Translations under genes and position numbers: made by a program | Source: Halogeometricum pallidum JCM 14848 | GTDB taxonomy: Archaea > Halobacteriota > Halobacteria > Halobacteriales > Haloferacaceae | Direction of reading: 5' to 3' | NCBI RefSeq assembly: GCF_000337095.1 | Contig: NZ_AOIV01000037.1 | Location: 1-52,569 of the forward strand | Length of the DNA: 52,569 bases | Shown: in pieces, positions 4,722-30,423 of the stretch | Layout: the number at the start of each line of letters is the position of its first letter | Numbering within the stretch: the first letter of the stretch is position 1 | Notes under the pieces: generated by a model | What the model saw: only the letters and a program-made list of their open reading frames with translations | Told to the model about the DNA's origin: nothing | Database searches by the model: none

Positions 4722-4746
4722 ACGACAGCGCCGCGACACACGGAGT

Positions 4747-4786: not shown

Positions 4787-4813
4787 CGTGCACCTCCACC
4801 AAGCACCGCCCGG

Positions 4814-6115: not shown

Positions 6116-6160
6116 TGCTTCGAGGTTGCCTGTACGGAAACGTTTTCGGCGTGGACCCTG

Positions 6161-6174
6161 ATGTGATATCACAT
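6161..6174. promoter_or_regulatory. 14-bp perfect palindrome overlapping the SDR start codon
   Basis: ATGTGATATCACAT is a perfect 14-base palindrome, and the SDR ATG (6173) is formed by its last bases and those that follow. No strong TATA box is visible at the usual distance before it. A protein bound here would cover the transcription start and start codon of the SDR-cupin-FAH operon, so a repressor operator is the simplest reading. Confidence 0.45.
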
Positions 6175-6961: not shown

Positions 6962-7305
6962 AGCCCGTCCCGTTCGACGACGCCGAGACGTACGAACCGG
7001 AGGAGGGCTGGCGGCGCGTCTCGATGGCGGGCAGCGACCGCTTCTCCTTCGAGTGGTTCGAGAAACCGCCGGGGCACAGTTCGCCGATGCACGACCACGA
7101 GAACGAGCAGGTGTGTCTCTGCCTCGAAGGCGAACTCACCGTGGTCACCGAGGACGACGAGGTGGCGCTCGGACCGAACGATTCGGTGCTGCTCGAATCG
7201 AACGAGGCCCACCGGGTCGAGAATACCGGCGACGAACGAGCGGTCGGATTGGACGTGTTCGCGCCGGGTCGTTCGTTCGACTTCTGGACGGACCGCGAGG
7301 AATGA
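6958..7305 (+). CDS. Single-domain cupin protein
   Basis: This 115-residue protein has the two cupin motifs: 'SPMHDHENEQVCLCLEGE' with metal-ligand His/His/Glu (residues about 42-59), and 'LESNEAHRVENTGDE' supplying the third His (about 81-85). It starts at a GTG that overlaps the SDR stop codon. Single-domain cupins of this size can bind sugar-acid or keto-acid ligands, isomerise, or act as accessory proteins. The tight operon position between SDR and FAH hydrolase argues for a role in the same pathway. Confidence 0.78.
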   Translation: MKPVPFDDAETYEPEEGWRRVSMAGSDRFSFEWFEKPPGHSSPMHDHENEQVCLCLEGELTVVTEDDEVALGPNDSVLLESNEAHRVENTGDERAVGLDVFAPGRSFDFWTDREE

Positions 7306-8123: not shown

Positions 8124-8273
8124 GAGGGTGTCTCTCGACGGCGGGCAACGCCGTCCGAGCAGCGACCCGCCGTCCGCGAACGTCGAGCGTGGCCGCTCGG
8201 CAAGATGATATAGGTAATGATTGTCGGTGTTCTAAATGAATAGATTGTTAAGCACGCCCGGTTTTTGTCATCA

Positions 8274-9392: not shown

Positions 9393-9467
9393 CCCCCGCC
9401 CCACGGCGCCGTCCCAGGTCGCGAAGAACCCAACCAAGAGTCTACTACAAACAAACCACACCAACAC

Positions 9468-11459: not shown

Positions 11460-11698
11460 GTCCGAGCAGAGAAGCCCCCGAAGACCAGGTCGACACGTCC
11501 GACGTCGGCGGTCTCGGGGAGATCATCCCGGATCCTCTGATTCCGGTCTGGCGCCGGATCGAACGGATTCAGTCGTTCCGGGAGACGCACGGCAACACCT
11601 ACGTCACGGCGCTGGAGGCGCTGACGGCCATCGCGTTGGCCGTCGGCTACGTCTGGTGGGTGTACCTCTACTTCTACGGCGGCGCCGTCAGCCTGTAG
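11456..11698 (+). CDS. Small single-helix protein coupled to the TRAP permease
   Basis: This 80-residue protein has an acidic, hydrophilic N-terminal half and one predicted membrane helix (about 52-77, rich in Ala/Val/Tyr/Trp). Its ATG overlaps the permease stop, so it is translationally coupled to it. No known domain is recognised. Position and topology suggest an accessory subunit that stabilises or regulates the TAXI permease; this is inference. The DctQ portion is already fused within the permease, so it is not simply the missing small subunit. Confidence 0.7.
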   Translation: MSPSREAPEDQVDTSDVGGLGEIIPDPLIPVWRRIERIQSFRETHGNTYVTALEALTAIALAVGYVWWVYLYFYGGAVSL

Positions 11699-11726
11699 GC
11701 GCCGTCCTACGGGCTGTTCTTCCGCG

Positions 11727-13205: not shown

Positions 13206-13378
13206 AGCGAGGTCCTCTCCGTGTTCCGGCGGGAGAAGGAGAGCGCCCGCGTGTCGGTTCCGTCGCCGGTGGCGGCCTTCGCGCCGTCGTCCGTCGAGTG
13301 AGACATTGGTCGGAGTTCCGTATCTGAGACAATAAATCGTTGGGGTCGCGTCGCCGGGAGACGGCGGCGCGAGCCCCA

Positions 13379-13386
13379 CCTATATG
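13379..13386 (+). promoter_or_regulatory. TATA box of the enoyl-CoA hydratase gene
   Basis: CCTATATG is centred about 28 bases before the ATG at 13411. This fits a leaderless haloarchaeal promoter and decides against an in-frame ATG at 13384 that lies inside the box. Confidence 0.6.
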
Positions 13387-13410
13387 TGCGGCCCGACCGA
13401 TAGCGGAGGC

Positions 13411-14199
13411 ATGGAACGGTACGACGACGTAAGCTACGCCGTGACCGACGGTATCGCGACGATCACCATCGAACGTCCGGACGTGTACAACGCCTTCACT
13501 CGGAACACGATCCTCGAACTCAACGACGCCGCCCGAACGGCCGAGGCCGACGACGGCGTATACGCGGTCGTGCTGACGGGCGACGGGAAGGGCTTCTGTT
13601 CGGGCGCCGACACCACCGAGATGCCCGACTGGGACGAGCAGTCCCCCGAGGAGTACGGCGCCTTTCTCTGGCTGATCCAGCAGTTCGTCTACAACCTCAG
13701 GACGATGGCGACGCCCTCGGTCGCGGCGGTCAACGGTCCGGCCATCGGTGCCGGCTGCGACTTCGCGCTGGCCTGTGACCTCCGCGTCGTCGGGGAGGAG
13801 GGCGTCATGCGCGAGGGGTTCGTCAACGTCGGTCTGGTTCCCGGCGACGGAGGCGCGTGGCTCCTGCCCCGACTCGTCGGCGAGTCCAAGGCCCGCGAGT
13901 ACCTGCTCACCGGGCGCGACATCACGCCCGCGGACGCCGTCGACATCGGTCTCGCGGTCGAACGGGCCGACGACGCGCTGGAGGCGGCGGGCGCCCTCGC
14001 CGCGGAGATTCGGGACAAGCCCGCGACCGCGGTCCAGCACACGAACCGCCTCGTCGACCCGCAGCGGAGCTTCGAGGAGTACTGCCGGAAGGCGGCCGAG
14101 TACCAGTGGGACTGCGTCGTCGACGCCGAGCATCAGGAGGCCGTGGCCGCGTTCAACGAGGGACGAGCGCCCGCGTTCGACCGTTCGTACGACGACTGA
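13411..14199 (+). CDS. Enoyl-CoA hydratase/isomerase family protein
   Basis: This 262-residue crotonase-fold protein has the oxyanion-hole segments 'GDGKGFCSGADTTEM' (about 59-73) and 'NGPAIGAGCDFALACDLRV' (about 109-127). 'REGFVNVGLVPGDGGAWLLPRLVG' spans 131-154 and holds the region where the catalytic acids usually lie; the second conventional Glu position reads Gly-Asp here, so hydratase chemistry is probable but not certain. It would hydrate or isomerise an enoyl-CoA. It lies between the CoA-transferase and the acyl-CoA dehydrogenase, transcribed against both. Confidence 0.85.
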   Translation: MERYDDVSYAVTDGIATITIERPDVYNAFTRNTILELNDAARTAEADDGVYAVVLTGDGKGFCSGADTTEMPDWDEQSPEEYGAFLWLIQQFVYNLRTMATPSVAAVNGPAIGAGCDFALACDLRVVGEEGVMREGFVNVGLVPGDGGAWLLPRLVGESKAREYLLTGRDITPADAVDIGLAVERADDALEAAGALAAEIRDKPATAVQHTNRLVDPQRSFEEYCRKAAEYQWDCVVDAEHQEAVAAFNEGRAPAFDRSYDD

Positions 14200-14239
14200 C
14201 CGCAGCCATCCGGCGTGTCGCGCGAGATGCGGGGGCCAG

Positions 14240-15379
14240 TTAGCGTTCGGAGACGGCCGGGAGCCCGCGTTCTTCGAGTGCGCGGGCGATGGTGTTCAAC
14301 TGCATCTCGTCGGTGCCCGCGGCGATGCGTCTGCTCCGGGCGAACCGGTAGAGATACTCTAACGGGTGGCCCTGCTGGTACGCTCGTGCGCCGACTATCT
14401 GGACGGCCTCGCTGACCACCTCTTCGGCCACCCTCGAACAGTGGAGCTTCGCCGTCGACGTCTGGAGACGCGGCGGCGCCCGTTCGTGCCCCTCCGCCCC
14501 TGCCGCGGACGCGTACGCCAGCGAGGCGGCGGTCTCGACCTGTCGATACATCTCGGCGAGTTTCCACTCGATACCCTGGAACTCGTCTATCGTCCGCCCG
14601 AACTGTTCTCGCTCGCTCGCGTACGACAGCGCCCGCTCCAGCGCCGCTTCGGCCCACGCGACGGTGAGAATAGAGCTTCCCAGCCGCTCCCAGTTGAGCG
14701 ACACTAGCTGCTCTTTGAACGCCTCCTGGCCACGGGTGAGGACGCGACGCTCCGGGACGACCACGTCGTCGATGGTAAAGTGCGTCTGGGAGTAACCGGC
14801 CATATTCGTGTACACCTCCTGTATCTCGACCCCGGGGTCGTCGTACGGAATGACGACGGACCCCAGTCCCTCCGGGAACCGGACCCACGTCACCGCCGCG
14901 TCGCCGAACGGGACGCCCCCGACCCACGTCTTCTCGCCGTTGCAGACCAATCGACCGTCCTCCTCGGTCACCTCCGTCGTCATCGACCCCACGTCCGACC
15001 CGGCCTCGGGTTCGGAGATGGCGATGGAAACGAAGCTCTCGCCCGCCGTCACCGCCGGAAGGAACTCCTCTTTGACGGAGTCCGAGCCGAACAGGTCGAT
15101 AGCTCGTGGAGCGACCATGCTCTGCATGTAGGTGAACCAGCCGGTGTCTGGACACTCGCGGCCGACGGCTTCCGTCAGGAGCATCGCCGTCAAGTCGGAC
15201 AGTCCCTGCCCGCCGTACTCTTCGGAGATAGACGGACAGTAGAGGTCGGCCTCGGCCAGTTCTTCGAGATTCTCCCACGGGACGTCCCCGTGCCACGTGT
15301 AAGCGTCGTCGGTGAACTCCGCGGCGACCGACTCGGCGCGTTCGGCGAACTCACGCTGTTCCGCTGTCAGGGCTCGCAT
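14240..15379 (-). CDS. Acyl-CoA dehydrogenase, isovaleryl-CoA-dehydrogenase-like active site
   Basis: This 379-residue flavoprotein has the acyl-CoA dehydrogenase fold: 'ISEPEAGSDVGSM' (FAD-binding strand, 121-133), 'EREQFGRTIDEFQGIEWKLAEM' in the third domain, and a C-terminal 'GTDEMQLNTIAR'. The usual catalytic Glu of the 'YEGT' motif is absent (here 'IAAGT'). A Glu at 231 in 'NWERLGSS' matches the alternative base position of isovaleryl-CoA and long-chain dehydrogenases. It should oxidise a short or branched acyl-CoA to an enoyl-CoA. A TATA-like box lies 28 bases before the ATG. Confidence 0.88.
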   Translation of the reverse strand: MRALTAEQREFAERAESVAAEFTDDAYTWHGDVPWENLEELAEADLYCPSISEEYGGQGLSDLTAMLLTEAVGRECPDTGWFTYMQSMVAPRAIDLFGSDSVKEEFLPAVTAGESFVSIAISEPEAGSDVGSMTTEVTEEDGRLVCNGEKTWVGGVPFGDAAVTWVRFPEGLGSVVIPYDDPGVEIQEVYTNMAGYSQTHFTIDDVVVPERRVLTRGQEAFKEQLVSLNWERLGSSILTVAWAEAALERALSYASEREQFGRTIDEFQGIEWKLAEMYRQVETAASLAYASAAGAEGHERAPPRLQTSTAKLHCSRVAEEVVSEAVQIVGARAYQQGHPLEYLYRFARSRRIAAGTDEMQLNTIARALEERGLPAVSER

Positions 15380-15402
15380 GTCTACCGTTCGGAAACAAAC
15401 CC

Positions 15403-15410
15403 GGATAAAT
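15403..15410 (-). promoter_or_regulatory. TATA box of the acyl-CoA dehydrogenase gene
   Basis: On the minus strand ATTTATCC is centred about 28 bases before the start at 15379, consistent with a leaderless transcript. Confidence 0.55.
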
Positions 15411-15494
15411 GGATTGGCTCCGCTTCTGCGTCGCTCGCGGTAGGCGGGTCCAGCACATTGAGTTCGTGCCGTCCGTCGCGGCGTCGGCGGGCAC

Positions 15495-16697
15495 TCAGAC
15501 GTTCGCGGCGAGGGTCTTGGCGATGTGGTCGCCGAAGGGGAGCGAGGAGGTCAGACCGGGGGACACCGCGTTGAGGATGTGGACCGCGTCTTCCCGCTCG
15601 ATGAACAGCGGGTCTTCGACCAGTTCGCCCTCGTCGCTGACGAGTTGGGCGCGGATGCCGGCGTAACTCTCCGTCAGGTCGCCGCCGCGCACCTCCGGAA
15701 CCAAGCGCTGTGAGGCCTCGGTGAATTTCCGCTTCCGGTAGGATTTGTTCAGTTCCTCCCACGCCGCCGACAGCATCGTCTTGGAGGCGAGGAGCTTTCT
15801 GAACCCCTCGTACCGGAGCGTCTCGACGAGTTCGGCCGGGTCGACGTCCGTGTTGTCGTAGGCCTCGCGCCCGAAGGCCAACACCGCGTTCGGACCGACG
15901 ATGACCTTCCCGTCCGTCCGCCGGGTGTAGTGGACGCCGAGGAACGGGAGGTCCGGGTCCGGAGTCGGATAGATCATCGTCCGACAGAGGTCGGCCCGTT
16001 CCGGCGTGAGTTCGTAGTACTCGCCCCGAAACGGGACGACTTGGTACGACTCGCCCACGCCGACCTGATGGGCCAGCGTGTCGGCGTGCAGGCCCGCCGC
16101 GTTCACCAGGTACGACGCCTCGACGTCGCTGTTGCTCGTCGCGAGACGATAGCCGTCGTCGGTACGTTCGACCCGCGAGACGGCGTGACCCGTGTACAGC
16201 GAGACGCCGGCCCGCTGAATCTCCCGCGTGAGCGCGTACACGTACTGCTGTGAGTCCACCGACGCGGCCTCGGGGGCGTGGAGGGCGGCCCGTCCGACGG
16301 CGTGGGGTTCGTGCTCGCGAATCTCGTCTCGGGAGTCCAGCAGTTCGTACTCGACGCCGTTGGCCTCGGCCCGTTCGGCGAGAGTTTCGAGATGTGCCGC
16401 CTCGCGGTCCGTCTGCGCCACGACGAGGACCCCTCGCTCCTCGCAGGGCACGTCGTGGGCCGCGCAGTACTCCTTCATTCGTCGGGTCCCCTCGGTGGCG
16501 AAGCGCGCCTTCTCCGAGTCGGGCGGGTAGTTGAAGCCGGGATGGAGGACGCCGGAATTCCGGCCGCTCTGGTGTGCCGCGAGATGGTACTCCTTCTCGA
16601 GAACGGCGACGTCGAGGTTCGTCCGCGCCGCGAGGTGCTTCGCGACGGACAGACCGACGCAACCGCCGCCGACGATGGCGACGTCGTGACGTATCAT
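15495..16697 (-). CDS. lhgO: L-2-hydroxyglutarate oxidase-like FAD-dependent oxidoreductase
   Basis: This 400-residue protein is of the glycine-oxidase/L-2-hydroxyglutarate dehydrogenase family. The N-terminal Rossmann motif 'VAIVGGGCVGLSVAKHL' binds FAD, followed by 'AAHQSGRNSGVLHPGFNY' (about 40-57), which is characteristic of LhgO/L2HGDH. Later landmarks are 'VNAAGLHADTLA' and 'PFLGVHYTRRTDGKVIVGPNAVLA'. It would oxidise L-2-hydroxyglutarate or a similar 2-hydroxy acid to the keto acid. Immediately downstream, 115 bases away, is the acyl-CoA dehydrogenase on the same strand. The symbol is by family resemblance only. Confidence 0.85.
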   Translation of the reverse strand: MIRHDVAIVGGGCVGLSVAKHLAARTNLDVAVLEKEYHLAAHQSGRNSGVLHPGFNYPPDSEKARFATEGTRRMKEYCAAHDVPCEERGVLVVAQTDREAAHLETLAERAEANGVEYELLDSRDEIREHEPHAVGRAALHAPEAASVDSQQYVYALTREIQRAGVSLYTGHAVSRVERTDDGYRLATSNSDVEASYLVNAAGLHADTLAHQVGVGESYQVVPFRGEYYELTPERADLCRTMIYPTPDPDLPFLGVHYTRRTDGKVIVGPNAVLAFGREAYDNTDVDPAELVETLRYEGFRKLLASKTMLSAAWEELNKSYRKRKFTEASQRLVPEVRGGDLTESYAGIRAQLVSDEGELVEDPLFIEREDAVHILNAVSPGLTSSLPFGDHIAKTLAANV

Positions 16698-19918: not shown

Positions 19919-20214
19919 GTTTCAGTCGAACGGCCTCCCGCCGGATTAATAGAACCGTAGATGTCGAACGCGGACGGTCGCGGCGACCGATGCTGGACGT
20001 GCCGGGACGGCGTCCGAGCAGTACGGTGGTACTGAGGGAGGGCTGATGCGTCAACGGCAGGCGATGGGAAGTGTCGTGCTGTCAGAGGCACATCACCAGA
20101 CGACTGGTGCGGGAGCACGTCGTTAGCTCCGTCGAAGCCCATCGCGTCTCGACCGACGACCCGGCCGACAATATACGGCCGGGGCGAGTTTCTGACCCAG
20201 AAATTCGCACGACT

Positions 20215-21396
20215 TCAGGCCGAGCAACCCACCGACCGACCGACTTCGATCAGTCGCTTCGTTTGCACGCCGGTCCCCCGAACCGTGTAGCCGCGGTTCT
20301 CGCAGTTCCAGGAGAGCGAGAGAGTCGGTCCGTAATCGAAGGTCGCGGGTCGGCCGTCGAGCGTCACGTCGCGTTCGGCGGGGTCGATATCGAGGGTGTA
20401 GTCGAACTTCGCGACCGTGAGTTCGCGTCCGCCGGCGACGTAGCGAAGTCCGACCCCGTTAATACGGCCGGTCGTGCGCGTGGCGTAGACCAACTCGAAT
20501 GCGGGCGGGACAGTCGGGTTAGGAACCGTCATCGAACTCCGGGAGGCCAACTCGGCGATGCTCCGGTACAACTCCGTTTCGGGGACGTCGGGTCGACGGA
20601 CCGTCGTCTCGGCGTCTAGCCGGGGTCGGAACGTGTCCGCCGATACCTGCGCGTCGAACGCCACGTCGGTGTACGTCGTCGTTATCGACCGCCGGACGTC
20701 GTCGGCGACCCAGACCGTCTGCTGGCGCAGCGGATAGAACCGCTCGGTGTCGAGCCACAGTCGCTGTCGGTACCGAGTCTCGCTTCGGTTGGTCTCGGGT
20801 GCAACGTCAAGGACGTAGGCGGATCGGTCACCGACGGTCCCCGTCTTGACGAACTCGACGGTGTAGCCGCGAGCGTCAACTCGGGGGGCGACGCCGCTGT
20901 GTCGGGGGACGACAGGCAACGGCGATACTCCGATAGACTGCGGTCGCCCCAGGTCGTCGGTCAGTCCCGCGGCAGCGACAAGTCGCCGGAGTCGAACGGC
21001 CGTGAGCGAGTCGGTCGGCGGACCCGTCAACTCGATGGCGGTTACGGCGTTTCGGTCGGTGTCGCGAAGCCAGAGCATCGACCCGTTCGAGACCTGCACC
21101 TCGTACCGTCGGTCCGACTCACCGCGAAAGCGGACTCGTTTCCGGTCGGTTTCCGGAACGAGCGTGACGTTGGCGACGCTCCGGGACGTGACGGTCCCAT
21201 TTGTGCGCATCGCGACCGTCTGCGTTCCGGTGAGAGCGCCGATGGAGCGGTAGCGCTCGGTCACGTTCGCGTCGACTGAGGGATTCGTGGCCCCTATCGT
21301 ACCACCGGAGACCCACAGAAGCGCCGGAAGGACGACGCCGAGGAGCAAGAGCGCGGCGAGTACGCGTCGGTCGAGTCGAGAGAGAAGAGCGGTCAT
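20215..21396 (-). CDS. LolA-like secreted/anchored protein
   Basis: This 393-residue protein has one N-terminal hydrophobic helix (about 10-32) acting as signal anchor. An extracellular beta-rich body follows, resembling the LolA/LppX-type outer-membrane lipoprotein-sorting fold used by haloarchaeal surface proteins: repeated strands such as 'KRVRFRGESDRRYEVQVSNGS', 'YRQRLWLDTERFYPLRQQTVW' (each about 20 residues) and 'SITTTYTDVAFDAQVSADTF'. No lipobox is seen. Archaea lack an outer membrane, so the role is probably binding of a hydrophobic ligand at the cell surface. The ATG at 21396 is chosen because the anchor helix follows it directly. Confidence 0.65.
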   Translation of the reverse strand: MTALLSRLDRRVLAALLLLGVVLPALLWVSGGTIGATNPSVDANVTERYRSIGALTGTQTVAMRTNGTVTSRSVANVTLVPETDRKRVRFRGESDRRYEVQVSNGSMLWLRDTDRNAVTAIELTGPPTDSLTAVRLRRLVAAAGLTDDLGRPQSIGVSPLPVVPRHSGVAPRVDARGYTVEFVKTGTVGDRSAYVLDVAPETNRSETRYRQRLWLDTERFYPLRQQTVWVADDVRRSITTTYTDVAFDAQVSADTFRPRLDAETTVRRPDVPETELYRSIAELASRSSMTVPNPTVPPAFELVYATRTTGRINGVGLRYVAGGRELTVAKFDYTLDIDPAERDVTLDGRPATFDYGPTLSLSWNCENRGYTVRGTGVQTKRLIEVGRSVGCSA

Positions 21397-21742
21397 ACTG
21401 ATAGTACCCTGAACTGTTTGCCTCTGTGTGAGAGAGTTGGTAAACTCTTCCGGACGCCGGCCACCCGGGTTTGACGGGGATCCGGGGCGGGAGAGCCGCC
21501 AACGGCCCCAGAACAAAGTTAGCGACCGCGAGCAGTTCATGGCGGCCTTCCGCTTCGGTCTGGCCGAACGGAGCGTTCAGATAGTCGTCCAATAAAATTA
21601 AAAATCATATGCAGTTCTTCTTTTATGTATATAGGATAAGAAAGTCCAGAGGACAAATTATAGTTACACTATAGTGAGCCGATTCTCGCGTAGCTATGTG
21701 TATACGCACAACTTCGATTCCCCCAGAACCGAATGGGAGAGT
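21397..21742. other. Intergenic region with an AT-rich island
   Basis: About 346 bases between divergent genes. The segment 21590-21690 is clearly AT-rich and contains a perfect 10-base palindrome CACTATAGTG at 21667-21676. It should hold the promoters of the LolA-like gene and the small helix-turn-helix gene. No other feature is recognised. Confidence 0.45.
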
Positions 21743-21916
21743 ATGTACACGAAAGCAGAACTCGTCGACGAATTCAGGCCGATAGATGCGGACGAATGCG
21801 CCGAGATGCGTTTGGCCTCGGAATTAGGCTACTCGATGGAGTCGCTCGCGGCGTGCTTCAGTTTCGACGAGGCACCCGTCCGATACCACCTCAGCGGGTG
21901 CTGTTCGCACCACTGA
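21743..21916 (+). CDS. Very small helix-turn-helix-like protein
   Basis: This 57-residue protein is compatible with a minimal helix-turn-helix: 'AECAEMRLASELGYSMESLA'-like helix followed by 'FDEAPVRYHLSG' as a possible recognition helix, and a C-terminal 'CCSHH' that could bind a metal. A GTG at 21674 would add 23 residues. The family is not recognised. Composition and codon use fit a real haloarchaeal gene, but the small size keeps confidence moderate. Confidence 0.45.
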   Translation: MYTKAELVDEFRPIDADECAEMRLASELGYSMESLAACFSFDEAPVRYHLSGCCSHH

Positions 21917-22084
21917 TCGCCGCGTTCTCCGAGATGGGGCCGCGTGTCCGCGAGAGAGCGAACGCGGTTAGGTTCGGAAGACGGTAGAGAAGACCAGACC
22001 GCTCGCCGGCCACCGGCGACCGTGACAACGGTCAAGACGGTCGCCGTAGACTACGATACAGCGGCAGAGACGCAAGCGAAACTC

Positions 22085-22498
22085 ATGACTTCAGGAACGG
22101 ACTCGAACGCCGACGACATCGACGAACTCGAAGAAGAGATCGAGAGCCTTGAGTTCCAACAGCGGACGGAGGAAATCTCCGCAGAGGACGAACGCGAACT
22201 CGTCGAGCGGATCGAGACGAAGCGCGAAGTTCTCCGGCAGAAGCGACGGATCGCGAGCGGGGACGGTCCACCCATCGCGCGCGGCCAGACCGTTCACATC
22301 CGCTCCCGCGAACCGATACTCGTCACGCGAGCGGGTGGGTCCCGGAAGTACGGCGCGTGGGACGCCGAGGACGGCGAACCCGTCGGCGAGGCGTGGTCGC
22401 TTTCGGAGACTGCGGTGCGGGGGCTAATGCGACGGTACGACTGGATGCAGGTCGACGGCGAGGCGATGGCGTCCGTCGTGGGTGATGAGGACGAGTAA
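22085..22498 (+). CDS. Haloarchaeal coiled-coil protein of unknown function
   Basis: This 137-residue acidic protein has residues about 10-62 predicted as a charged coiled coil ('DDIDELEEEIESLEFQQRTE' and following). A compact beta domain of about 60 residues follows ('TVHIRSREPILVTRAGGSRK', 'YGAWDAEDGEPVGEAWSLSE'), ending in an acidic tail. The reading frame is open for 47 codons before the ATG at 22085, but that part has basic, non-haloarchaeal composition. Function is unknown. The C-terminal domain resembles small ligand or RNA-contact modules only vaguely. Confidence 0.6.
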   Translation: MTSGTDSNADDIDELEEEIESLEFQQRTEEISAEDERELVERIETKREVLRQKRRIASGDGPPIARGQTVHIRSREPILVTRAGGSRKYGAWDAEDGEPVGEAWSLSETAVRGLMRRYDWMQVDGEAMASVVGDEDE

Positions 22499-22636
22499 GC
22501 CGCCAAAAAGAGGCGACCAAGAGCGCGTGCTGCCGAAACAGAACGAGCTACGGTCGCTCCCTTAAGCGGCTGCGATGTTTCTGACGGGTCGCGGAAAGTA
22601 GTTTTGTGCGTCGCACCGCTCTTCCGAAGGGAACTA

Positions 22637-23326
22637 ATGGAGGACCGACCGAGCGACTCCGAGACGACTCGCGGTGTGAACCCGCGGCACGGTTCGGACG
22701 GCCGCGTCGCCTCGACCGGAACCGCGGCGATAGTTGGCGCACTGCTCTGGGCGGCGGCGCCGTGGGCGAAACGCGCCGTCTACGGCGACCGACCGTACGT
22801 CGGGACAGAGTTCGACCTCCTCTCGTTCGTCTGCCTCGTCGCCGTGGGAGTCGGAGTCGCCGGCTTCCGGGCGTCGTTCCGGCCGGAGTACGGACGGCTC
22901 GGAGCCGTCGGCGTCGCGTCGACGGGTGCGGGCGTCGCCTTACTCGCGGCACTCGCCGGACGGTCGGCGCTCGCCGTCGTCACCGCCGGGTTCCGAGCGG
23001 TCCCGGCGATGGGCGAAGACCCGGTCGGCCTTATACTGACGTTCGCGTCCGTGGCGGGACTCGGACTCGCGACTCTCGGGGCGGGCGCTCTCGGCGCCGC
23101 GCTTCGTCGACTGACCGATCGGTGGACCCTCGCCGCCGCGTCGCTCCTGTCCGGACTCGCCGTCCCGGTTCTCGTGCTCGTCCTCCGAGCGCTGTCGCTT
23201 CTCCCCCTCTCGGTCGGAACGCTCGTCGTTCGAACGAACGTCGCCTTCTTACCGCTGAGTCTCGGGTGGGTCGCACTCGGTGCGGCGGTTCGGTCGCGAA
23301 CGCGGGTCGACGAGTCGGGCGGATAG
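22637..23326 (+). CDS. Multi-pass membrane protein of unknown function
   Basis: This 229-residue protein has about six hydrophobic helices from residue 25 to the C-terminus, separated by short loops containing Arg. No transporter or enzyme motif is seen. The ATG at 22637 is preferred over the GTG at 22604 because the first residues then read as an acidic cytoplasmic tail. The 96-base gap to the KptA gene suggests separate transcription. Confidence 0.6.
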   Translation: MEDRPSDSETTRGVNPRHGSDGRVASTGTAAIVGALLWAAAPWAKRAVYGDRPYVGTEFDLLSFVCLVAVGVGVAGFRASFRPEYGRLGAVGVASTGAGVALLAALAGRSALAVVTAGFRAVPAMGEDPVGLILTFASVAGLGLATLGAGALGAALRRLTDRWTLAAASLLSGLAVPVLVLVLRALSLLPLSVGTLVVRTNVAFLPLSLGWVALGAAVRSRTRVDESGG

Positions 23327-23421
23327 TTATAGTCGGTTGCAAGCGATTGGCTGATCGGGAGTCGGCCGCAACCGGCCAAGTAGCCGACAGTCAGTAGTCG
23401 CCAGGGTGGCTACGTGTCGGC

Positions 23422-24054
23422 GTGATTCGCGTCTGCGAGGACCACGGCTACTTCGAGGGCGGCGACTGTCCCGCGTGCGGTGACGGCGGGCGGGAGGTGC
23501 TCGACGACGGGCGCCGCACACGCCTCTCGAAGTTCGTCAGCGGAGCGCTGCGTCACTTCCCCGACGACGCCGGACTGTCCGTCGACGACCGGGGATGGAT
23601 CGGATACGAAGAACTCCTCGAGGCGGTCACGGAGCGCTACTCGTGGGCGGAACCGGAACACGTCGAAGCGGTGACCGCCACCGACTCGAAGGGTCGCTTC
23701 GAGCGTCGCGGGAAGCGGATTCGCGCGGCGTACGGTCACTCGATAGACGTGGCGTTGGAAGCGACGGAATCCGCCGTTCCAGGGCGTCTCTACCACGGGA
23801 CCGCTCCCCGGAACCTCGGATCAATACTCGATGAGGGGCTCAAACCGATGAACCGCCAGCAGGTCCATCTCTCGGCGACGGCCGACGAGGCGCGCGAGGT
23901 GGGGCGGAGACACGCCGACGACCCGGTGCTTCTCGCAGTCGACGCGGAGGCGATGGAACGCGACGGGTTCGAGGTGGACCGACGGGGGACCGGAACGTAC
24001 ACCGTCGCCCGCGTCCCGCCCGACTACGTCGAAGAGGTGAACGTCGAAGAGTGA
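23422..24054 (+). CDS. kptA: RNA 2'-phosphotransferase (Tpt1/KptA) with N-terminal zinc knuckle
   Basis: This 210-residue protein transfers a 2'-phosphate from RNA to NAD+. The N-terminal 20 residues hold a Cys/His set (C5, H8, C16, C19) likely to bind zinc. The core shows 'RLSKFVSGALRH' (conserved Arg/His of the RNA-binding lobe), 'DDRGWIGYEELLEAV', 'LYHGTAPRNLGSILDEGLKP' (NAD-binding His-Gly-Thr) and 'QVHLSAT'. These are the hallmarks of KptA. It starts with GTG. In archaea the natural substrate is unclear because their tRNA splicing does not leave a 2'-phosphate. Confidence 0.9.
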   Translation: MIRVCEDHGYFEGGDCPACGDGGREVLDDGRRTRLSKFVSGALRHFPDDAGLSVDDRGWIGYEELLEAVTERYSWAEPEHVEAVTATDSKGRFERRGKRIRAAYGHSIDVALEATESAVPGRLYHGTAPRNLGSILDEGLKPMNRQQVHLSATADEAREVGRRHADDPVLLAVDAEAMERDGFEVDRRGTGTYTVARVPPDYVEEVNVEE

Positions 24055-24130
24055 GCCCTACGACGGAGCGAAGGCGGCAAACGAGGGTGAGTCCGGTGCC
24101 TATTCGGGCAGTGGCGGAGAAATCTTTCCC

Positions 24131-24553
24131 GTGACAGAACTCAGTGCACATCACGTCGGCGTCACCGTCGCGGACCTCGAACAGGCCGTCGAGTTCTACC
24201 AGGACACGCTCGGATTCCCCGTCGAGAACGAGTTCTCTATCTCGGGTGAGGCGTTCGAGACGGCCGTCGACGTCGAGGACGCCACCGGTCGGTTCGCCCA
24301 TCTCGACGCCGGCGGCGTCCGCGTCGAACTCGTGGAGTACGGACCGGAGGGGGAACCGCAGACGACGTCGTCGGTGAACTGTCCCGGTGCGAAACATCTC
24401 GGGTTCTCCGTCGACGACGTCGACTCGCTGTACGAGTCGTTGGAGGGGGATGTCGAGATGCTCAGCGAACCCCAGACAACAGAAACGGGCTCTCGAATCC
24501 TGTTCGTCCGAGACCCGGAGGGTAACCTCGTCGAACTGCTGGAGACGTCGTAA
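24131..24553 (+). CDS. VOC-family protein (glyoxalase/epimerase fold)
   Basis: This 140-residue protein contains two beta-alpha-beta-beta-beta modules: 'AHHVGVTVADLEQAVEFYQD' at the N-terminus and 'GAKHLGFSVDDVDSLYESLE' in the second half. It ends with 'FVRDPEGNLVELLE', the classic VOC signature. Metal ligands His-8 (or nearby), Glu in 'VRVELVEY', His in 'KHLGF' and the final Glu are present. It could be a methylmalonyl-CoA epimerase-like or glyoxalase-like enzyme. The specific reaction is not resolvable. Starts at GTG. It borders the replication origin. Confidence 0.8.
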   Translation: MTELSAHHVGVTVADLEQAVEFYQDTLGFPVENEFSISGEAFETAVDVEDATGRFAHLDAGGVRVELVEYGPEGEPQTTSSVNCPGAKHLGFSVDDVDSLYESLEGDVEMLSEPQTTETGSRILFVRDPEGNLVELLETS

Positions 24554-24656
24554 ACGGTTCGTCTCCACGTCTGCCGGATCGTTTCTCGGTTACCCTACCG
24601 TCTCCTTCCTTCTCTGCCTCCGTTCCTTATTCATCGTCTTCGGGGATTCCCCTGGT

Positions 24657-24677
24657 CCCCCCGTGTTTCCGTCGTTC
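24657..24677 (-). repeat. ORB 1, left arm, minus orientation
   Basis: Plus-strand reading CCCCCCGTGTTTCCGTCGTT (24657-24676) is the reverse complement of the consensus box. A partial plus-strand copy (AACGTCGGAAG) follows at 24710-24720. Confidence 0.8.
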
Positions 24678-24780
24678 TTCTCGTGGCTGCCATCCCGCAA
24701 GAACGGGCGAACGTCGGAAGATAATACGAACGCCTCTCTTCTTCTCGTCTCTGTCGTTGTCGATGGCGGGGAACACACCC

Positions 24781-24799
24781 ACCCCACGTTTCCGTCGTT
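24781..24799 (-). repeat. ORB 2, left arm, minus orientation
   Basis: ACCCCACGTTTCCGTCGTT is a full reverse-complement box adjacent to the G-run and AT-rich segment. Confidence 0.85.
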
Positions 24800-24812
24800 A
24801 ATCGTCTCGAGC

Positions 24813-24825
24813 GGGGGGGGGGGGG
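24813..24825 (+). repeat. Run of 13 G beside the unwinding element
   Basis: An uninterrupted G tract lies between ORB 2 and the AT-rich segment. G-strings beside ORBs have been described at haloarchaeal origins. The exact length is prone to sequencing error. Confidence 0.7.
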
Positions 24826-24846
24826 AGGCACGATGCGCCTCCCCTG

Positions 24847-24952
24847 TTACAACTTGTAAAACGGCTACTGGACTATTCGATGCTAATCTATATTAAATGT
24901 ACCTATGCTAGCACTAGTGTTTCTTAGACAACAACAATCAAACTAGGCTAGT
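24847..24952. other. AT-rich segment, candidate DNA unwinding element
   Basis: About 106 bases are far richer in A and T than the rest of the window and contain no gene. The segment lies between the oppositely oriented ORB arms, the expected position of the melting site. Confidence 0.7.
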
Positions 24953-25038
24953 CGTGCGTGAGTTCAATCGAGAGAAGAGGGAGCGAGAAGGGATAGAAGA
25001 GCAGTTGCAACGACGAGTCGGACCCCTCTCCTCGGAGA

Positions 25039-25058
25039 AACGACGGAAACACGGGGTG
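25039..25058 (+). repeat. ORB 3, right arm
   Basis: AACGACGGAAACACGGGGTG, full box in plus orientation. Confidence 0.88.
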
Positions 25059-25098
25059 CGGGTGTTCGTGGTAGTCCCCTCACCCCTTCGATACGGAG

Positions 25099-25118
25099 AA
25101 CGTCGGAAACGCGGGGTG
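25099..25118 (+). repeat. ORB 4, right arm
   Basis: AACGTCGGAAACGCGGGGTG, followed by a G/T-rich tail. Confidence 0.88.
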
Positions 25119-25155
25119 GGTGGGTGAGTAAAGCGGGCAACGGAGGCGTGAGTGG

Positions 25156-25175
25156 AACGACGGAAACGCGGGGTG
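25156..25175 (+). repeat. ORB 5, right arm
   Basis: AACGACGGAAACGCGGGGTG, the consensus copy. Confidence 0.9.
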
Positions 25176-25365
25176 GGAGGGTCGAGAGGTGGAGAAAGGT
25201 CGGGTAGCAGGCGGGTAACGAGCCGAACTGGCGATGTTATGTCGGAAGAATACTCAATATACAATGTAATTCTTTCAGAAGAGGTTGTATGAACGATCGC
25301 TCCTCGGAGAATGTGTTCACGGGTCATCGTCGAACTATCTGAGTGACCCCTCCCTTCCGACCCGG

Positions 25366-25385
25366 AACGACGGAAACGTGGGGTG
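25366..25385 (+). repeat. ORB 6, right arm
   Basis: AACGACGGAAACGTGGGGTG, followed by GTGTGTGT. Confidence 0.88.
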
Positions 25386-25395
25386 TGTGTGTCGA

Positions 25396-25414
25396 AACGG
25401 CGGAAATGCGGTAT
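25396..25414 (+). repeat. ORB 7, degenerate
   Basis: AACGGCGGAAATGCGGTAT keeps the CGGAAA core but has lost the GGGGT half. Confidence 0.55.
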
Positions 25415-25472
25415 CTAATAGACGAACGGTAAAACGCCAAATACGGCACCGAGAGAGTTCGACACAGAGAGA

Positions 25473-25491
25473 AACGTCGGAAATTCGGGGG
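25473..25491 (+). repeat. ORB 8, orc1-proximal, degenerate
   Basis: AACGTCGGAAATTCGGGGG lies about 20 bases before the orc1 TATA box, so binding of Orc1 here could also repress its own gene. Confidence 0.65.
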
Positions 25492-25506
25492 CTGCGTTGG
25501 GATGGA

Positions 25507-25514
25507 TTTATATA
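25507..25514 (+). promoter_or_regulatory. orc1 TATA box
   Basis: TTTATATA is centred 26 bases before the orc1 ATG (25537), predicting a leaderless transcript. ORB 8 is immediately upstream. Confidence 0.75.
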
Positions 25515-25536
25515 GGATGGCTCTCACGACACTGTC

Positions 25537-26796
25537 ATGGAGAAAGATGGGTCACAGGATATCGCCGCGGAGATTTTCGCTCAGGAAGACCCCATCTTCA
25601 GGAACAAATCCCTCGTGGAGGTAGAACACGTCCCGAGCCCCGAACGGATCGTCGGCCGCGACGACGAGATACGCGCCCTCTCGACGGAACTGCGGTCGGC
25701 GGTCAACGGCGACTCGCCGGAGAACGTCATCCTGTACGGTGAGACGGGGACCGGAAAGAGCCTCGTCGCCAAACACGTCGCGAAGGCGGCCAAGTCGAAC
25801 GCCGGCGACGTCCGCATCGGGACCGTTTACGTGGATTGCTCGACCGACGATACCGAGACGCAGGCTATCTCCAGCATCGCCCGGACGCTCAACGACGAGG
25901 CGGTAACCGACATCCGCGTCCCGGAGACGGGACTCGCGAAGGCGGCGTACTACACGCGTCTGTACGCCATCCTCGACCAGCAGTACGACGTGGTCATCAT
26001 CATCCTCGACGAGGCGGACATGCATCCGGACGACCAGATTCTCATGTCGCTCTCGCGGGCCGTCGAGACGGGCAAGACCGACTGCCGCATCGGACTCATC
26101 GCCATCAGCAACAAGGTCCGCTGGGCCGAGGACCTGAACGACCGGGTGAAGTCGTCGCTCCAACCGCGCGAGCTCAACTTCCACTCCTACGACGCCAATC
26201 AACTCCGCGCGATACTCAGTCACCGGCGCGACGCGTTCCGCGAGGGAGTTCTCTCCGACGACGTGGTCCCTCTCTGTGCCGCTTACGCGGCGCAGGACCA
26301 CGGCGACGCCCGTCAGGCCATCGACGTCCTCCGGAACGCGGGGATGCTCGCCCAACGGGACGGGTCGAACGTCGTCACCCGCGACCACGTCGAGGACGCG
26401 AAGATGGAGGCCGAGAAGGACCGCTTTCGGGACCTCATCGGCGGTCTCACCGTCCAGAAGAAACTCGTCCTCTCGGCGGTGACCGCGCTCCACAAGGGGA
26501 CCGACGACGACGAGTTCTCGATGGCGCAGATCATCGAAACCTACACCCAACTCTGCGAGGCGACCGGTACGTCGACGCGGTCGGACCGCCGCGTCCGCGA
26601 CTTCGTCCGGCGGTTGGCGTTCCTCGATATCCTCGAACTCCGGAAGCAGAACCTCGGCCGCGCGGGCGGCATCACCATCTACGCCCGCCTCCAACCCGAT
26701 CACGACCTCGACATCGTTCACCAGACGGCGATGGACGACGAACAGTTCGTCGTCGCTGACTCCGACGCCGAGAACGCCTCGCTCGACTCCTTCTGA
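25537..26796 (+). CDS. orc1: Orc1/Cdc6 replication initiator
   Basis: This 419-residue AAA+ initiator should bind the adjacent ORBs and load the replicative helicase. Seen are Walker A GETGTGKS (68-75), Walker B 'IIILDEAD' (154-161), a sensor-1 Asn in 'AISNK' (189-193) and sensor 2 'GDARQAID' (256-263). A C-terminal winged-helix domain (about 300-400) follows, for DNA binding. Length matches haloarchaeal Orc1/Cdc6 proteins. Haloarchaea carry several orc genes, each matched to its own origin; its place inside an ORB array makes this the initiator of this origin. The upstream ORB 8 and the leaderless TATA box suggest autoregulation. The number of the paralogue (orc2, orc3 and so on) cannot be assigned. 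Confidence 0.96.
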   Translation: MEKDGSQDIAAEIFAQEDPIFRNKSLVEVEHVPSPERIVGRDDEIRALSTELRSAVNGDSPENVILYGETGTGKSLVAKHVAKAAKSNAGDVRIGTVYVDCSTDDTETQAISSIARTLNDEAVTDIRVPETGLAKAAYYTRLYAILDQQYDVVIIILDEADMHPDDQILMSLSRAVETGKTDCRIGLIAISNKVRWAEDLNDRVKSSLQPRELNFHSYDANQLRAILSHRRDAFREGVLSDDVVPLCAAYAAQDHGDARQAIDVLRNAGMLAQRDGSNVVTRDHVEDAKMEAEKDRFRDLIGGLTVQKKLVLSAVTALHKGTDDDEFSMAQIIETYTQLCEATGTSTRSDRRVRDFVRRLAFLDILELRKQNLGRAGGITIYARLQPDHDLDIVHQTAMDDEQFVVADSDAENASLDSF

Positions 26797-26835
26797 GGCG
26801 TCGCCGCACTGTCTCGGTTCACCCCCGGTCGATCT

Positions 26836-26855
26836 CACCCCGAGTTTCCGACGTT
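26836..26855 (-). repeat. ORB 9, downstream of orc1
   Basis: CACCCCGAGTTTCCGACGTT is a reverse-orientation box about 40 bases after the orc1 stop. The gap 26797-27168 otherwise holds no gene. Confidence 0.75.
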
Positions 26856-26910
26856 TTCCGACCCGTTGGTCGCTCTCTCGACGCCTGCGGACCGCTCTCC
26901 TCTCGGGAGT

Positions 26911-26928
26911 CCCCGCGTTTCCGTCGTT
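26911..26928 (-). repeat. ORB 10, downstream of orc1
   Basis: CCCCGCGTTTCCGTCGTT is a reverse-orientation box, so orc1 is bracketed by plus boxes upstream and minus boxes downstream. Confidence 0.8.
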
Positions 26929-27168
26929 CTTCACCGTCTATCTTTTCCGCCTCTTCCCGATCGATCCTTCTTCGTTCGCCGTTCGTCCAGTTCCAATCGA
27001 CCTCCGAACTCGGGTTCGCTAAGTCGCCGTCTCCGCGATGAACCGGAGTTCGGCCGTCGTCCGACACTGGCGGATTAAGGAACGGGGAATACCTCGACGC
27101 GCCGGTGGTAGACGACGCCTGGCGGCTCTTTTTCCTCCGAACGTGCGCAGTCAGAACTAGACCGTCGT

Positions 27169-28812
27169 TCAGTAGGACATCTGCGGGTGTCGATTCGCGG
27201 GGCCGTCGCCATCCGAACCGTCCCCATCTGACTCACCGTCCTCGGGGGCGTCTCCGCTCGCATCGTCTGCCCCACCGCACGCCGTCTCGGCGTTCCCCCG
27301 TTCGTCGTGCGGGGACGCCGCTTCGACGGCGGCGCGAACGTGCCGCGCCGAGATGGGCCGTCTGCTCCCCGCGTCGTACGTCTCCGCTATCGCCCGTCTC
27401 GCCGCCTCGTTCGCCGCCGATTCGAGGTCGCTCGCGCTGAATCCCTCGGTCGCGGCGACTACGTCGGCCAACTCGTCGGCACCGAGTTCCGTCGGTCGCC
27501 CGTCGAGGTGGTACTGCAGTATCGACCGCCTGGACTCGGCGTCCGGGAGGGGGACGGCTATCCACTCGTCGAACCGACCCGTTCGGACGAGGGCCTCGTC
27601 GAGTTCCTCCAGTTTGTTCGTCGCGCCGATGACGACGACGTCCTCGGCGTCCAACTCCGCGAGTTCCATCAACAGTTGGTTCTGCATCTGCCGTTCGCTT
27701 TGGGTGTTATGGGTGGCGCCGCGGTCGGTTCCGAGGGCGTCGAGTTCGTCGATGAAGACGATGCTCGGTTGGTGCGCGCGAGCGACGTCGAAGATTTTGG
27801 CGACGTTGTCGGCGCTTTCTCCGACGAATTTGCTGGTCACGTTCGCGGGGGTGATCCGGAGGAACGGCCTCCCGAGTTCGCCCGCGAGCGCGCGACTCAG
27901 ATACGTCTTCCCGGTCCCCGGCGGTCCATGTAGCAAAATACCGTTTATCGTTCCGAGTCCGTACTCCTCGAACAGTTCTGGGTCGGAGAGCGGGTTCAGG
28001 ACGGTCTGTCTGAGTCGCTCTTTCACCTCGTGCATCGCGGCCACGTCCTCGAACGTGGTATCGGGTTCGCACAGCCACTGTTCGGCGTCGTCGCCTCCGG
28101 AACCGCTCGACTCCCCGGACGCGCCGTCGTCGGACCCGTCGCCTCGAGACGGACGGACCGCCTTGGACATCTCGTCGGTCACGTCGTCGGCCGTCGTCGG
28201 TCCCTCCCGGTCGCCCTGTTGAAACCGAACCACGCCGCTGACGCGTTCCGGCGTCAGGTTGGCGACGACGGTTGCGTCCGCGTCGGACGCCCACTCGAAC
28301 TCGTCTATCAGAGAGTCCCGGAGGCCGGCGTGGAAACCGCTCGGCAGCGACTGTGTGAACCGGCCGTTCCGTCCGATGGGCGTCCGTTGCCGGTCCAACC
28401 CCCAGTAGAGATGCTCGGCCGCCCCGCGGGCGGCGTTGTTCACGAACTCGGCTAGCGCCGCGGCGTGCGACCGCAGGGCCGTCGGGTCGCACCGCGCCGC
28501 CGCCTCCGTGGAGATGGTCTCCGGACGACGCTCGCACGCGTCGGCGAAGGTGCCGATGTATTCGGCCTCTACGGCGCGTTCGAAGTGGAGTGTCGCGGCG
28601 ACGTTCGCCGCGACCATCTGCTCGTCGCGGACCAGAAATCCGGCGGAGGTGACGTACTCGCGTCGCTCACCGTCGTCGGTCGTTCGGTCCCACGCGTACT
28701 GGATGCGTCCGAGGCTCCGTATCGCCTGCGCATCGCAGAGGCGATATCCCTGCCTCACGGTGCCGTCCGCGCAGAGATATGCCATGTCTTCCGCTCGCCC
28801 CCCTACTATCAC
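27169..28812 (-). CDS. AAA+ ATPase with unrecognised N-terminal domain, replication-locus neighbour
   Basis: This 547-residue protein has three parts. Residues 1-210 form a domain I do not recognise (Cys at 14 and 26, then mostly helical, 'LAEFVNNAARGAAEHLYWGLD'), followed by an acidic Gly/Ser linker (215-245). A classical AAA module follows: Walker A GPPGTGKT (296-303), Walker B 'VFIDELD' (352-358), sensor 'GATN' (396-399) and arginine-finger 'RTGRFD' (410-415). A low-complexity acidic tail ends it. The AAA part resembles Cdc48/proteasome-type ATPases, so protein remodelling is likely. It converges on orc1 across ORBs 9-10. The GTG at 28812 fits the TATA-like element; ATG 28785 is the alternative. 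Confidence 0.85.
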   Translation of the reverse strand: MIVGGRAEDMAYLCADGTVRQGYRLCDAQAIRSLGRIQYAWDRTTDDGERREYVTSAGFLVRDEQMVAANVAATLHFERAVEAEYIGTFADACERRPETISTEAAARCDPTALRSHAAALAEFVNNAARGAAEHLYWGLDRQRTPIGRNGRFTQSLPSGFHAGLRDSLIDEFEWASDADATVVANLTPERVSGVVRFQQGDREGPTTADDVTDEMSKAVRPSRGDGSDDGASGESSGSGGDDAEQWLCEPDTTFEDVAAMHEVKERLRQTVLNPLSDPELFEEYGLGTINGILLHGPPGTGKTYLSRALAGELGRPFLRITPANVTSKFVGESADNVAKIFDVARAHQPSIVFIDELDALGTDRGATHNTQSERQMQNQLLMELAELDAEDVVVIGATNKLEELDEALVRTGRFDEWIAVPLPDAESRRSILQYHLDGRPTELGADELADVVAATEGFSASDLESAANEAARRAIAETYDAGSRRPISARHVRAAVEAASPHDERGNAETACGGADDASGDAPEDGESDGDGSDGDGPANRHPQMSY

Positions 28813-28834
28813 GACCTTCCCTTGGCGAACCCCG

Positions 28835-28938
28835 GTTAAAAATTCGATTCCTCGTTCTCACTGCTGATACCGTCGTTTTCCGAGGAGGTGGGCCGTTGCG
28901 GAGACGGCACGCCGCGCCGACGGCTACAACGCTTATCC
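28835..28938. promoter_or_regulatory. Divergent promoters of the AAA+ and winged-helix genes
   Basis: Minus-strand AATTTTTAAC (28835-28844) is about 28 bases before the GTG at 28812. Plus-strand CTTATCC (28932-28938) is 27 bases before the ATG at 28962. Both fit leaderless transcription from a shared intergenic region. Confidence 0.5.
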
Positions 28939-28961
28939 GATTCACCGCCGCAGGTACCGAC

Positions 28962-29360
28962 ATGACGATGGACTCCTCGACGACCGACGACTCGCTTCCG
29001 TCGGACCTCGAAGACATCCTCTCACCATCGAACGACCGGACGTTCGACGACTACCTGGCCATGCAGGACGCCATCGGCGACCGGACGCGCTTTCTCGTCG
29101 TCTACCTCCTCGCGCACGACGACCCGCACACCTCGACGCGGTTGGCCGACCGGGTGGGCGTCCGCCCGAACACGCTCCACTACCACCTCAACAAACTCGA
29201 AGACGTCGGCTTAGTGCGGAAACAGCCCGAAGCGACGAACGGGGCGGACGTCCGGGACACTCACTACGAGGCCACCGCCGCCGGGCGGGAGATACTCGAA
29301 CACGGCGTCGTCCGTCTCATCCGCCGAACCGACGACTCCGTCGAAGACTCCGATCCGTAG
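28962..29360 (+). CDS. ArsR-like winged helix-turn-helix protein
   Basis: This 132-residue protein has an acidic N-terminal lead followed by a winged helix: 'MQDAIGDRTRFLVVYLLAHD' (helix 1), 'TRLADRVGVRPNTLHYHLNKLEDVGLVRK' spanning 60-88 (recognition helix and turn) and a wing with 'THYEATAAGREILEHG'. No Cys metal site. It is divergent from the AAA+ ATPase and may regulate it; position between ORB 10 and an ORB-like element puts it inside the replication locus. Confidence 0.8.
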   Translation: MTMDSSTTDDSLPSDLEDILSPSNDRTFDDYLAMQDAIGDRTRFLVVYLLAHDDPHTSTRLADRVGVRPNTLHYHLNKLEDVGLVRKQPEATNGADVRDTHYEATAAGREILEHGVVRLIRRTDDSVEDSDP

Positions 29361-29364
29361 CGCT

Positions 29365-29386
29365 CTCACGTCGAGTTTCCGTCGTT
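29365..29386 (-). repeat. ORB-like element beyond the winged-helix gene
   Basis: The 22 bases match ORB 9 at about 20 of 22 positions, the differences falling in the CCCC half and one core base. It lies directly after the winged-helix stop codon. Confidence 0.5.
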
Positions 29387-29608
29387 TCCTCTCTCCGTCC
29401 TCCGGATTCTCCCGTCTCTCTCAGAGACCCCTTGCCGTCCTTCCCGGTCCCCCAGCGTTGTTGCTGTTGCTGGTTTTCTCCCCGGATGACGAGCGAATCG
29501 AGACTCCGTCGCGCCACCCTGACCAACGGCGGACGAGCGGCTGCTTATATAGAGCTTGAAAATACAGCCACATTTCCCATCCCCCTTTCGACCGAATCGG
29601 ATATCCGC

Positions 29609-29848
29609 ATGGCGACCACGATAACGGACGACGAAACCGGCAAGCGAGTCGTCGACAGCAACGGAAACCAGGTCGGTGTCGTCTCGTCGGTCGAGCACGG
29701 GACCGCGATCGTAGACCCCGACCCCGGCATCACCGACAAACTCCTCGCCAAACTCGGCTGGGACAACTCGGACGAGGAAGATTACCCGCTTCAGGAAGCG
29801 CGCATCGACACCATCACCGACGACGAAATCCGCCTCCGCAGCCTCTGA
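29609..29848 (+). CDS. PRC-barrel-domain protein
   Basis: This 79-residue protein is one small beta-barrel: 'GKRVVDSNGNQVGVVSSVEHG' (21 residues at most, about 11-31), 'TAIVDPDPG' and 'DEEDYPLQEARIDTITDDEI', the arrangement of haloarchaeal PRC-barrel proteins. PRC barrels mediate protein contacts in RNA processing, photosynthesis and cell-division partners (CdpB proteins). TATA-like CTTATATAG near 29552-29560 predicts a short leader of about 25 bases. No operon partner. Confidence 0.75.
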   Translation: MATTITDDETGKRVVDSNGNQVGVVSSVEHGTAIVDPDPGITDKLLAKLGWDNSDEEDYPLQEARIDTITDDEIRLRSL

Positions 29849-29934
29849 ACCGAATCCGACTCGACTCCGTTCCCACTAACTGAGAACCGACAGACCGAGC
29901 CGAAACTGTGGGCGAGGTGTCGCCTCGCTCGCTC

Positions 29935-30423
29935 TCAGCGTTCTTCTTCGAGGCGAGAGCGAACGTCCTCGGCGTCGAGTTCGTCGACCGCCTCCAATCC
30001 GAGCGAGACGACGAGCGGGTAGAAGTGCCGGTTCTTCTCGAACGGTTCCTCGTATTCGTACTCGTACTCGGCCTTGAGGATGGAGTAGGCGCGGTCCAAA
30101 TCGCGGCGAACCCCGTGCGGGAGGTACATGTACGTCGGCTTCTGTTCGTCCTTGACCGACGGTTTCGGCCCCGTGTCCTCCTTCGCTTCGTCCGATTCGC
30201 CCGTCTCTCCCGTCTCGTCCGATTCACCTGTCTCGTCCGGTTTTGCTGTCTCGTCCGGTTTTGCCGTCCCGCCCAGCGCTTCCGATTCGGCTGGTTCGTC
30301 CGTCTCGGTCGCTCCCTCGGCGTTCTCCGACTCCTCCGATTCCCCGGACTCGCCGGTCAGCGCCCGGTCCCGGGAGCGTTGACGCCGGCGGCGGAGTCGG
30401 TCGGCGCGGTCCTCGCCGCTCAT
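29935..30423 (-). CDS. Acidic ParA-operon partner protein, possible centromere-binding protein
   Basis: This 162-residue protein begins with a basic stretch rich in Arg ('RADRLRRRRQRSRDR'). It continues with an acidic low-complexity repeat region (about 22-82, units such as KPDET and GESDE), and ends with a folded-looking domain (about 90-162, 'YMYLPHGVRRDLDRAYSIL' and 'RHFYPLVVSLGLEAVDELD'). Its ATG overlaps the parA stop (ATGA), so the two are translationally coupled. It has no ParB Spo0J/HTH signature. Position makes it the candidate DNA-binding adaptor of the ParA system. That function is inference; the C-terminal domain family is not recognised. Confidence 0.8.
   Translation of the reverse strand: MSGEDRADRLRRRRQRSRDRALTGESGESEESENAEGATETDEPAESEALGGTAKPDETAKPDETGESDETGETGESDEAKEDTGPKPSVKDEQKPTYMYLPHGVRRDLDRAYSILKAEYEYEYEEPFEKNRHFYPLVVSLGLEAVDELDAEDVRSRLEEER

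Follow-up and report, generated by a model that had tools for sequence, protein, structure and literature searches.

The DNA around an orc1 gene is very probably the main origin from which a Halogeometricum megaplasmid replicates. Origin recognition boxes (ORBs) and the gene would together form an initiator-replicator cassette, of a kind known from haloarchaeal orc/cdc6-adjacent origins; its activity is a prediction. An origin with its own Orc1-ORB pair had been predicted for this locus from the letters alone, and the follow-up supports this, since the boxes accompany orthologous orc genes across genera, the orthologous gene is the sole orc1/cdc6 locus on circular replicons of relatives, and the GC skew peaks on the origin. 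The origin type is already known, and the new details are its conserved accessory parts. Our literature search found no experiment on this particular origin. Throughout, the window is the whole stretch of 52,569 nucleotides that was analysed.

The box array and the orc1 gene

The ORB was defined by the consensus AACGWCGGAAAYNYGGGGTG, with the 18-base core AACGWCGGAAAYNYGGGG. Exact copies of this core occur nine times in the window, against 0.0002 expected from a first-order Markov model built on the window's own dinucleotides. The same kind of model gives an expectation of 0.019 for the whole genome (4.38 Mb, 45 contigs), and a genome-wide search for identical boxes scattered elsewhere returned the same nine, all at the orc1 locus, and no other. 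Across the five Halogeometricum genomes exact boxes were likewise confined to the orc1 locus, apart from one match within a 1284-codon open frame of H. limi (genome G025); a reversed control pattern gave no match in the exact search across the genus. The box array at the orc1 locus is far above chance. The elements of the locus are as follows, with offsets in parentheses counted from orc1 and with G063 and G075 denoting two related genomes.

24657-24676, minus strand: outer left ORB (-878 to -885, kept in G063 and G075)
24780-24799, minus strand: inner left ORB, followed by a G-rich tail
24813-24825, plus strand: run of 13 G
24822-24844, no strand: inverted repeat rich in G and C, GGGGAGGC-ACGATGC-GCCTCCCC, immediately inward of the left ORB
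24847-24946, no strand: AT-rich segment, presumed unwinding element
24863-24877, plus strand: box GGCTACTGGACTATT, on the border of the AT-rich segment
25039-25058, plus strand: ORB
25099-25118, plus strand: ORB
25156-25175, plus strand: ORB
25221-25300, no strand: second, weaker AT-rich patch, 60% AT
25366-25385, plus strand: ORB, first of the promoter-proximal triad (-171)
25396-25415, plus strand: G-string-less ORB variant (-141), conserved, with the next ORB 77 bp on
25473-25492, plus strand: promoter-proximal ORB (-64), 14 bases upstream of the TATA-like element
25507-25514, plus strand: TATA-like TTTATATA, its centre about 26 bases upstream of the ATG, kept in G063 and G075
25537-26796, plus strand: orc1/cdc6 initiator gene, 419 aa, with AAA+ and winged-helix domains
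26836-26855, minus strand: ORB downstream of orc1
26909-26928, minus strand: ORB downstream of orc1

Upstream of orc1 the boxes with a G-string comprise two reverse and five forward copies, i.e. inverted ORB repeats. The original prediction had placed two reverse and at least four strong forward boxes here, all of which were recovered. Within the interval that it had drawn (24657-25491) the boxes are real, but two strong reverse ORBs (26836 and 26909) lie outside it, and the copy at 25396 that it had called degenerate is a conserved variant without G-string rather than a decayed box. The AT-rich segment and the G-run were both confirmed. The 100 bases from 24847 are 66% AT, compared with about 35% for the window, which places them in the top 0.2% of the window's 100-base stretches, and they sit between the inverted ORBs. 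Two additional boxes were seen farther away. One is a weaker box, AACGACGGAAACTCGACGTG, with two mismatches, on the minus strand at window 29367-29386, apparently intergenic and some 2.5 kb downstream of orc1. The other is a lone box with a full G-string, AACGTCGGAAACGAGGGGGGGTGGG, at G000:C37:156193-156210 on the same contig, about 130 kb from the origin and upstream of a likely gene start; it is possibly a remote Orc1 site.

The intergenic region with the array directly adjoins an orc/cdc6 gene of more than 300 aa. Its product matches AAA_16 (AAA+), Cdc6_lid and Cdc6_C (winged helix) and clears the curated cut-off of TIGR02928, the orc1/cdc6 subfamily model; the closest named orthologue is a 97% identical protein of H. 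limi. The promoter fits a leaderless transcript open to autorepression. By analogy, the ORB 14 bases upstream of the TATA element may let Orc1 repress its own gene. With regard to replication, Orc1 would bind the ORB set that is private to it and inherited together with it. The AT-rich segment is flanked by two reverse and several forward ORBs that point towards each other, and, as at known archaeal origins, its melting would allow MCM helicases to be loaded in both directions. The two downstream ORBs may titrate Orc1 and thereby damp initiation, as measured at oriC2D of Haloarcula hispanica.

The boxes might instead be an operator array that regulates orc1 transcription and starts no replication, given that one box abuts the orc1 promoter and that the triad at -171/-141/-64 is the most invariant part of the array. 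We consider this highly improbable, because the inverted boxes reach 880 bp upstream around the AT-rich segment and occur downstream of orc1 as well, because in the corresponding Haloferax loci the AT-rich core and the orc promoter are on opposite sides of the gene, and because the GC skew peaks at the locus.

The replicon and its GC skew

Each of four congeners has this origin, with an Orc1 that is 97-99% identical. In two of these relatives it is found on separate contigs of 299 and 444 kb with circular end overlaps, not on the main chromosome, where oriC1, the ancestral chromosomal origin, resides. The 443,649-bp contig G075:C4 has ends that overlap by 103 identical bases, and the window DNA is collinear across the joint; the 298,930-bp contig G047:C4 has an exact 89-base end overlap. 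On G075:C4, G047:C4 and G063:C4 the orthologue of the window's orc1 is the sole TIGR02928 (orc1/cdc6) gene. The 387-kb H. limi contig, which carries a second orc gene, starts and ends within this origin, as would be expected of a circle broken at its repeats. We infer that the replicon is a megaplasmid, 0.3-0.44 Mb in the relatives, of which the window's own contig is a 162-kb piece. A search for the RepH protein of pNRC100, run without a positive control, gave no match in five genomes.

Extra chromosomal origins of Haloarcula have been proposed to be captured plasmid origins, and the origin described here could likewise have been integrated into this strain's main chromosome. Two observations would be compatible with such an event: the contig that carries the window is incomplete, and the origin has metabolic genes around it. 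The flanking DNA is, however, collinear with G075:C4 and G063:C4 (91% identity in the longest blocks), and G075:C4 looks circular and has no other orc gene, so that we regard integration as very unlikely and retain the megaplasmid assignment. As for the gene content of this probable megaplasmid, window 573-16697 holds a catabolic run with an amidase, two enolase-superfamily genes, an FAA hydrolase, a TRAP-type DctM transporter and an acyl-CoA dehydrogenase, and the minus strand at 38532-40136 encodes a 534-aa protein with staphylococcal-nuclease-like and lamin tail domains.

The cumulative G minus C skew reached its maximum within 1 kb of the origin in three of the four relatives' replicons: at 429 kb in G075 (origin at 429.9), at 246 kb in G047 (origin at 247) and at 166 kb in G063 (origin at 165.2). 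In H. limi the peak was 36 kb off the origin, and on the window's own contig it was found at 26 kb. In G075 and G047 the skew minimum lies near the opposite side of the replicon. The skew range exceeded that of 5-kb block shuffles in all four relatives' replicons (P ≤ 0.0008). Since the skew peaks at the origin, it provides independent, if proxy, evidence of a long-standing replication start at this locus. The extreme at the origin is a maximum and not a minimum in G075:C4, G047:C4, G063:C4 and the window (20000-30000), which makes the leading strand C-rich, the reverse of the polarity usual in bacteria.

These data also bear on whether the locus is a real ORB-Orc module that is dormant or secondary, with the replicon normally starting from another site. 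Some ORB-bearing haloarchaeal origins are reported to be dormant in the laboratory (PMC3528665, PMC4595724), and the H. limi contig combines a second orc gene with the displaced skew peak. Nevertheless, with no other orc1/cdc6 gene on G047:C4, G063:C4 and G075:C4 and with skew peaks within 1 kb, we judge a dormant or secondary role unlikely.

The Orc lineage and related origins

ORBs identical in type surround the orthologous orc genes on Haloferax plasmids and the orc4 gene of Halobacterium (pNRC200) with its many relatives. In the complete 35,465-base Haloferax plasmid pHG4 this orc is the only annotated initiator. In the Orc protein tree the window's clade and the Haloferax plasmid clade were joined at full support, while the ten other Orc proteins of the strain's own genome fell elsewhere. 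The window's ORBs were absent at these ten other orc loci, two of which have clearly different boxes (TTCACCGGAAACCCGGTGTG and TTTACTGGAAATAGTGGGG). ORB sequence thus tracks Orc lineage, the boxes being present at all orthologues and absent from the strain's ten further orc loci. When compared at the DNA level with the plasmids, the intergenic region gave short box matches only. A viral origin was rejected, as the only viral match was a 28% identical Orc in one Natrinema virus. Two of the strain's other orc loci (L007:1289-1468 and L004:2660-2835) have, beside the gene, duplicated stretches of 90 and 84 bases whose copies match exactly or almost so and start 90 and 92 bases apart.

The layout agrees with that of the haloarchaeal orc/cdc6-adjacent origins described by Wu et al. 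2012 (PMC3528665), which have G-string ORBs in inverted arms, an AT-rich segment and an adjoining orc/cdc6 gene, with each Orc lineage having its own ORB sequence and some genes having ORBs on both flanks. The main text of that paper does not name the window's ORB sequence or orc lineage, nor does it mention the G-string-less box, the hairpin formed by the inverted repeat, or the GGCTACTGGACTATT box. In our own tabulation, ORBs downstream of the gene were present at 13 of 14 loci. The oriC2-cdc6E/oriC2D locus of Haloarcula hispanica (PMC3936714) is similar in having an origin upstream of the gene and separate ORBs downstream of it, which lower origin activity, probably via titration of Cdc6E. 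It differs in being chromosomal and in having 11 downstream ORBs in 722 bp at oriC2D, whereas the window has two; a construct of oriC2 with two downstream ORBs showed intermediate behaviour (PMC3936714).

The orc4 (and orc2) locus on pNRC200 of Halobacterium NRC-1 shares with the window the ORB sequence, the two-sided layout, a G/C-rich hairpin between inverted ORBs and a G-less box followed 78 bp later by the next ORB. Its Orc4 shares 51% identity and branches outside the window's clade, and four forward boxes follow orc4. In Halobacterium, viability requires Orc2 (PMC1906834), which is more than 90% identical to Orc4, and orc4 itself could be deleted. Closer relatives are the Haloferax loci on pHG4, pHl5678-1, pBNX82-3 and an H. 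mucosum contig, with a 71% identical Orc, window-type ORBs and the hairpin, to which the H. mucosum contig adds an identical GGCTACTGGACTATT box. Unlike in the window, where the core is upstream, the AT-rich core, hairpin and box of the Haloferax loci lie downstream of orc, as if the gene had been inverted within one common layout.

Fixed geometry and accessory elements

The boxes upstream of orc1 stand at -878/-755 (reverse), -498/-438/-381 (forward) and -171/-141/-64 (triad), and these offsets are alike in the window, G063 and G075 to within some 16 bases, with the triad identical. The middle box of the triad (25396) has no G-string. A box of this G-less type was followed by the next box 76-80 bp later in every one of the 18 upstream regions that we examined. 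These regions come from Halogeometricum, Haloferax, further genomes of the family and the orc4 group, and amount to about five lineages and not to 18 independent cases. Between lineages, the spacers after the G-less box aligned little or no better than shuffled sequence. Because the spacing is constant while the spacers have diverged, box geometry has been kept though sequence has not.

Between the left boxes and the AT-rich segment stand the hairpin and the GGCTACTGGACTATT box. The G-run at 24813-24825 continues into the inverted repeat at 24822-24844 and so forms part of the hairpin, and G-rich runs occur at the corresponding place in G063, G075, G047, G025 and G006. The hairpin's letters differ in other Halogeometricum (GAGGCAC-GAA-GTGCCTC; GAGAAGCAC-AGA-GTGCTTCTC), and its place within the genus is constant, 20-30 bases inside the left box. 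At this position Haloferax mucosum has a perfect 12-bp stem, and in the NRC-1 orc4 origin a stem of 11 bp lies further in. Four Haloferax plasmids have an imperfect hairpin, and G044 has none. A gene terminator is a disfavoured reading of the hairpin, since its position with respect to the origin core is the same even in Haloferax, where orc is turned round.

In every Halogeometricum genome and in H. mucosum the distance from the left ORB inwards to the GGCTACTGGACTATT box is 60-71 bp. The box is part of a 17-base exact match with H. mucosum; shuffled sequences never gave matches above 12. Across the strain's other orc loci and the whole genome the only exact match was the one at this origin. 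In the origins of pHG4, larsenii, Q22, NRC-1 and G006 the box was unrecognisable or only weakly recognisable, and we therefore do not claim it as lineage-wide. We class both the G-rich hairpin and the GGCTACTGGACTATT box as conserved elements with a putative accessory role.

We tentatively suggest that these parts belong to one lineage-wide module of fixed geometry, undescribed before, though we would put this at somewhat less than an even chance. It would consist of a full ORB, a G-string-less ORB 30-35 bp on (75 in the orc4 group) and another ORB 76-80 bp further, together with a G-rich, cruciform-forming repeat and GGCTACTGGACTATT flanking the unwinding region. In such a module Orc1 would be bound differently at the G-less ORB, and GGCTACTGGACTATT would bind a second protein or the melted strand. 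In the literature consulted, the G-less box at fixed spacing, the hairpin and the GGCTACTGGACTATT element seem to be unreported. The geometry of the G-less ORB is worth testing, since G-strings were reported to be essential at oriC1 of Haloarcula hispanica (PMC3936714).

Altogether, the locus is the probable replicator of a megaplasmid conserved in Halogeometricum. Its compact Orc-ORB pair recurs from a 35-kb plasmid to replicons of 0.44 Mb, and would be useful for vectors and for tests of Orc specificity. With a conserved G-less ORB at fixed spacing across a diverged spacer, the geometry of archaeal initiator assembly becomes testable.
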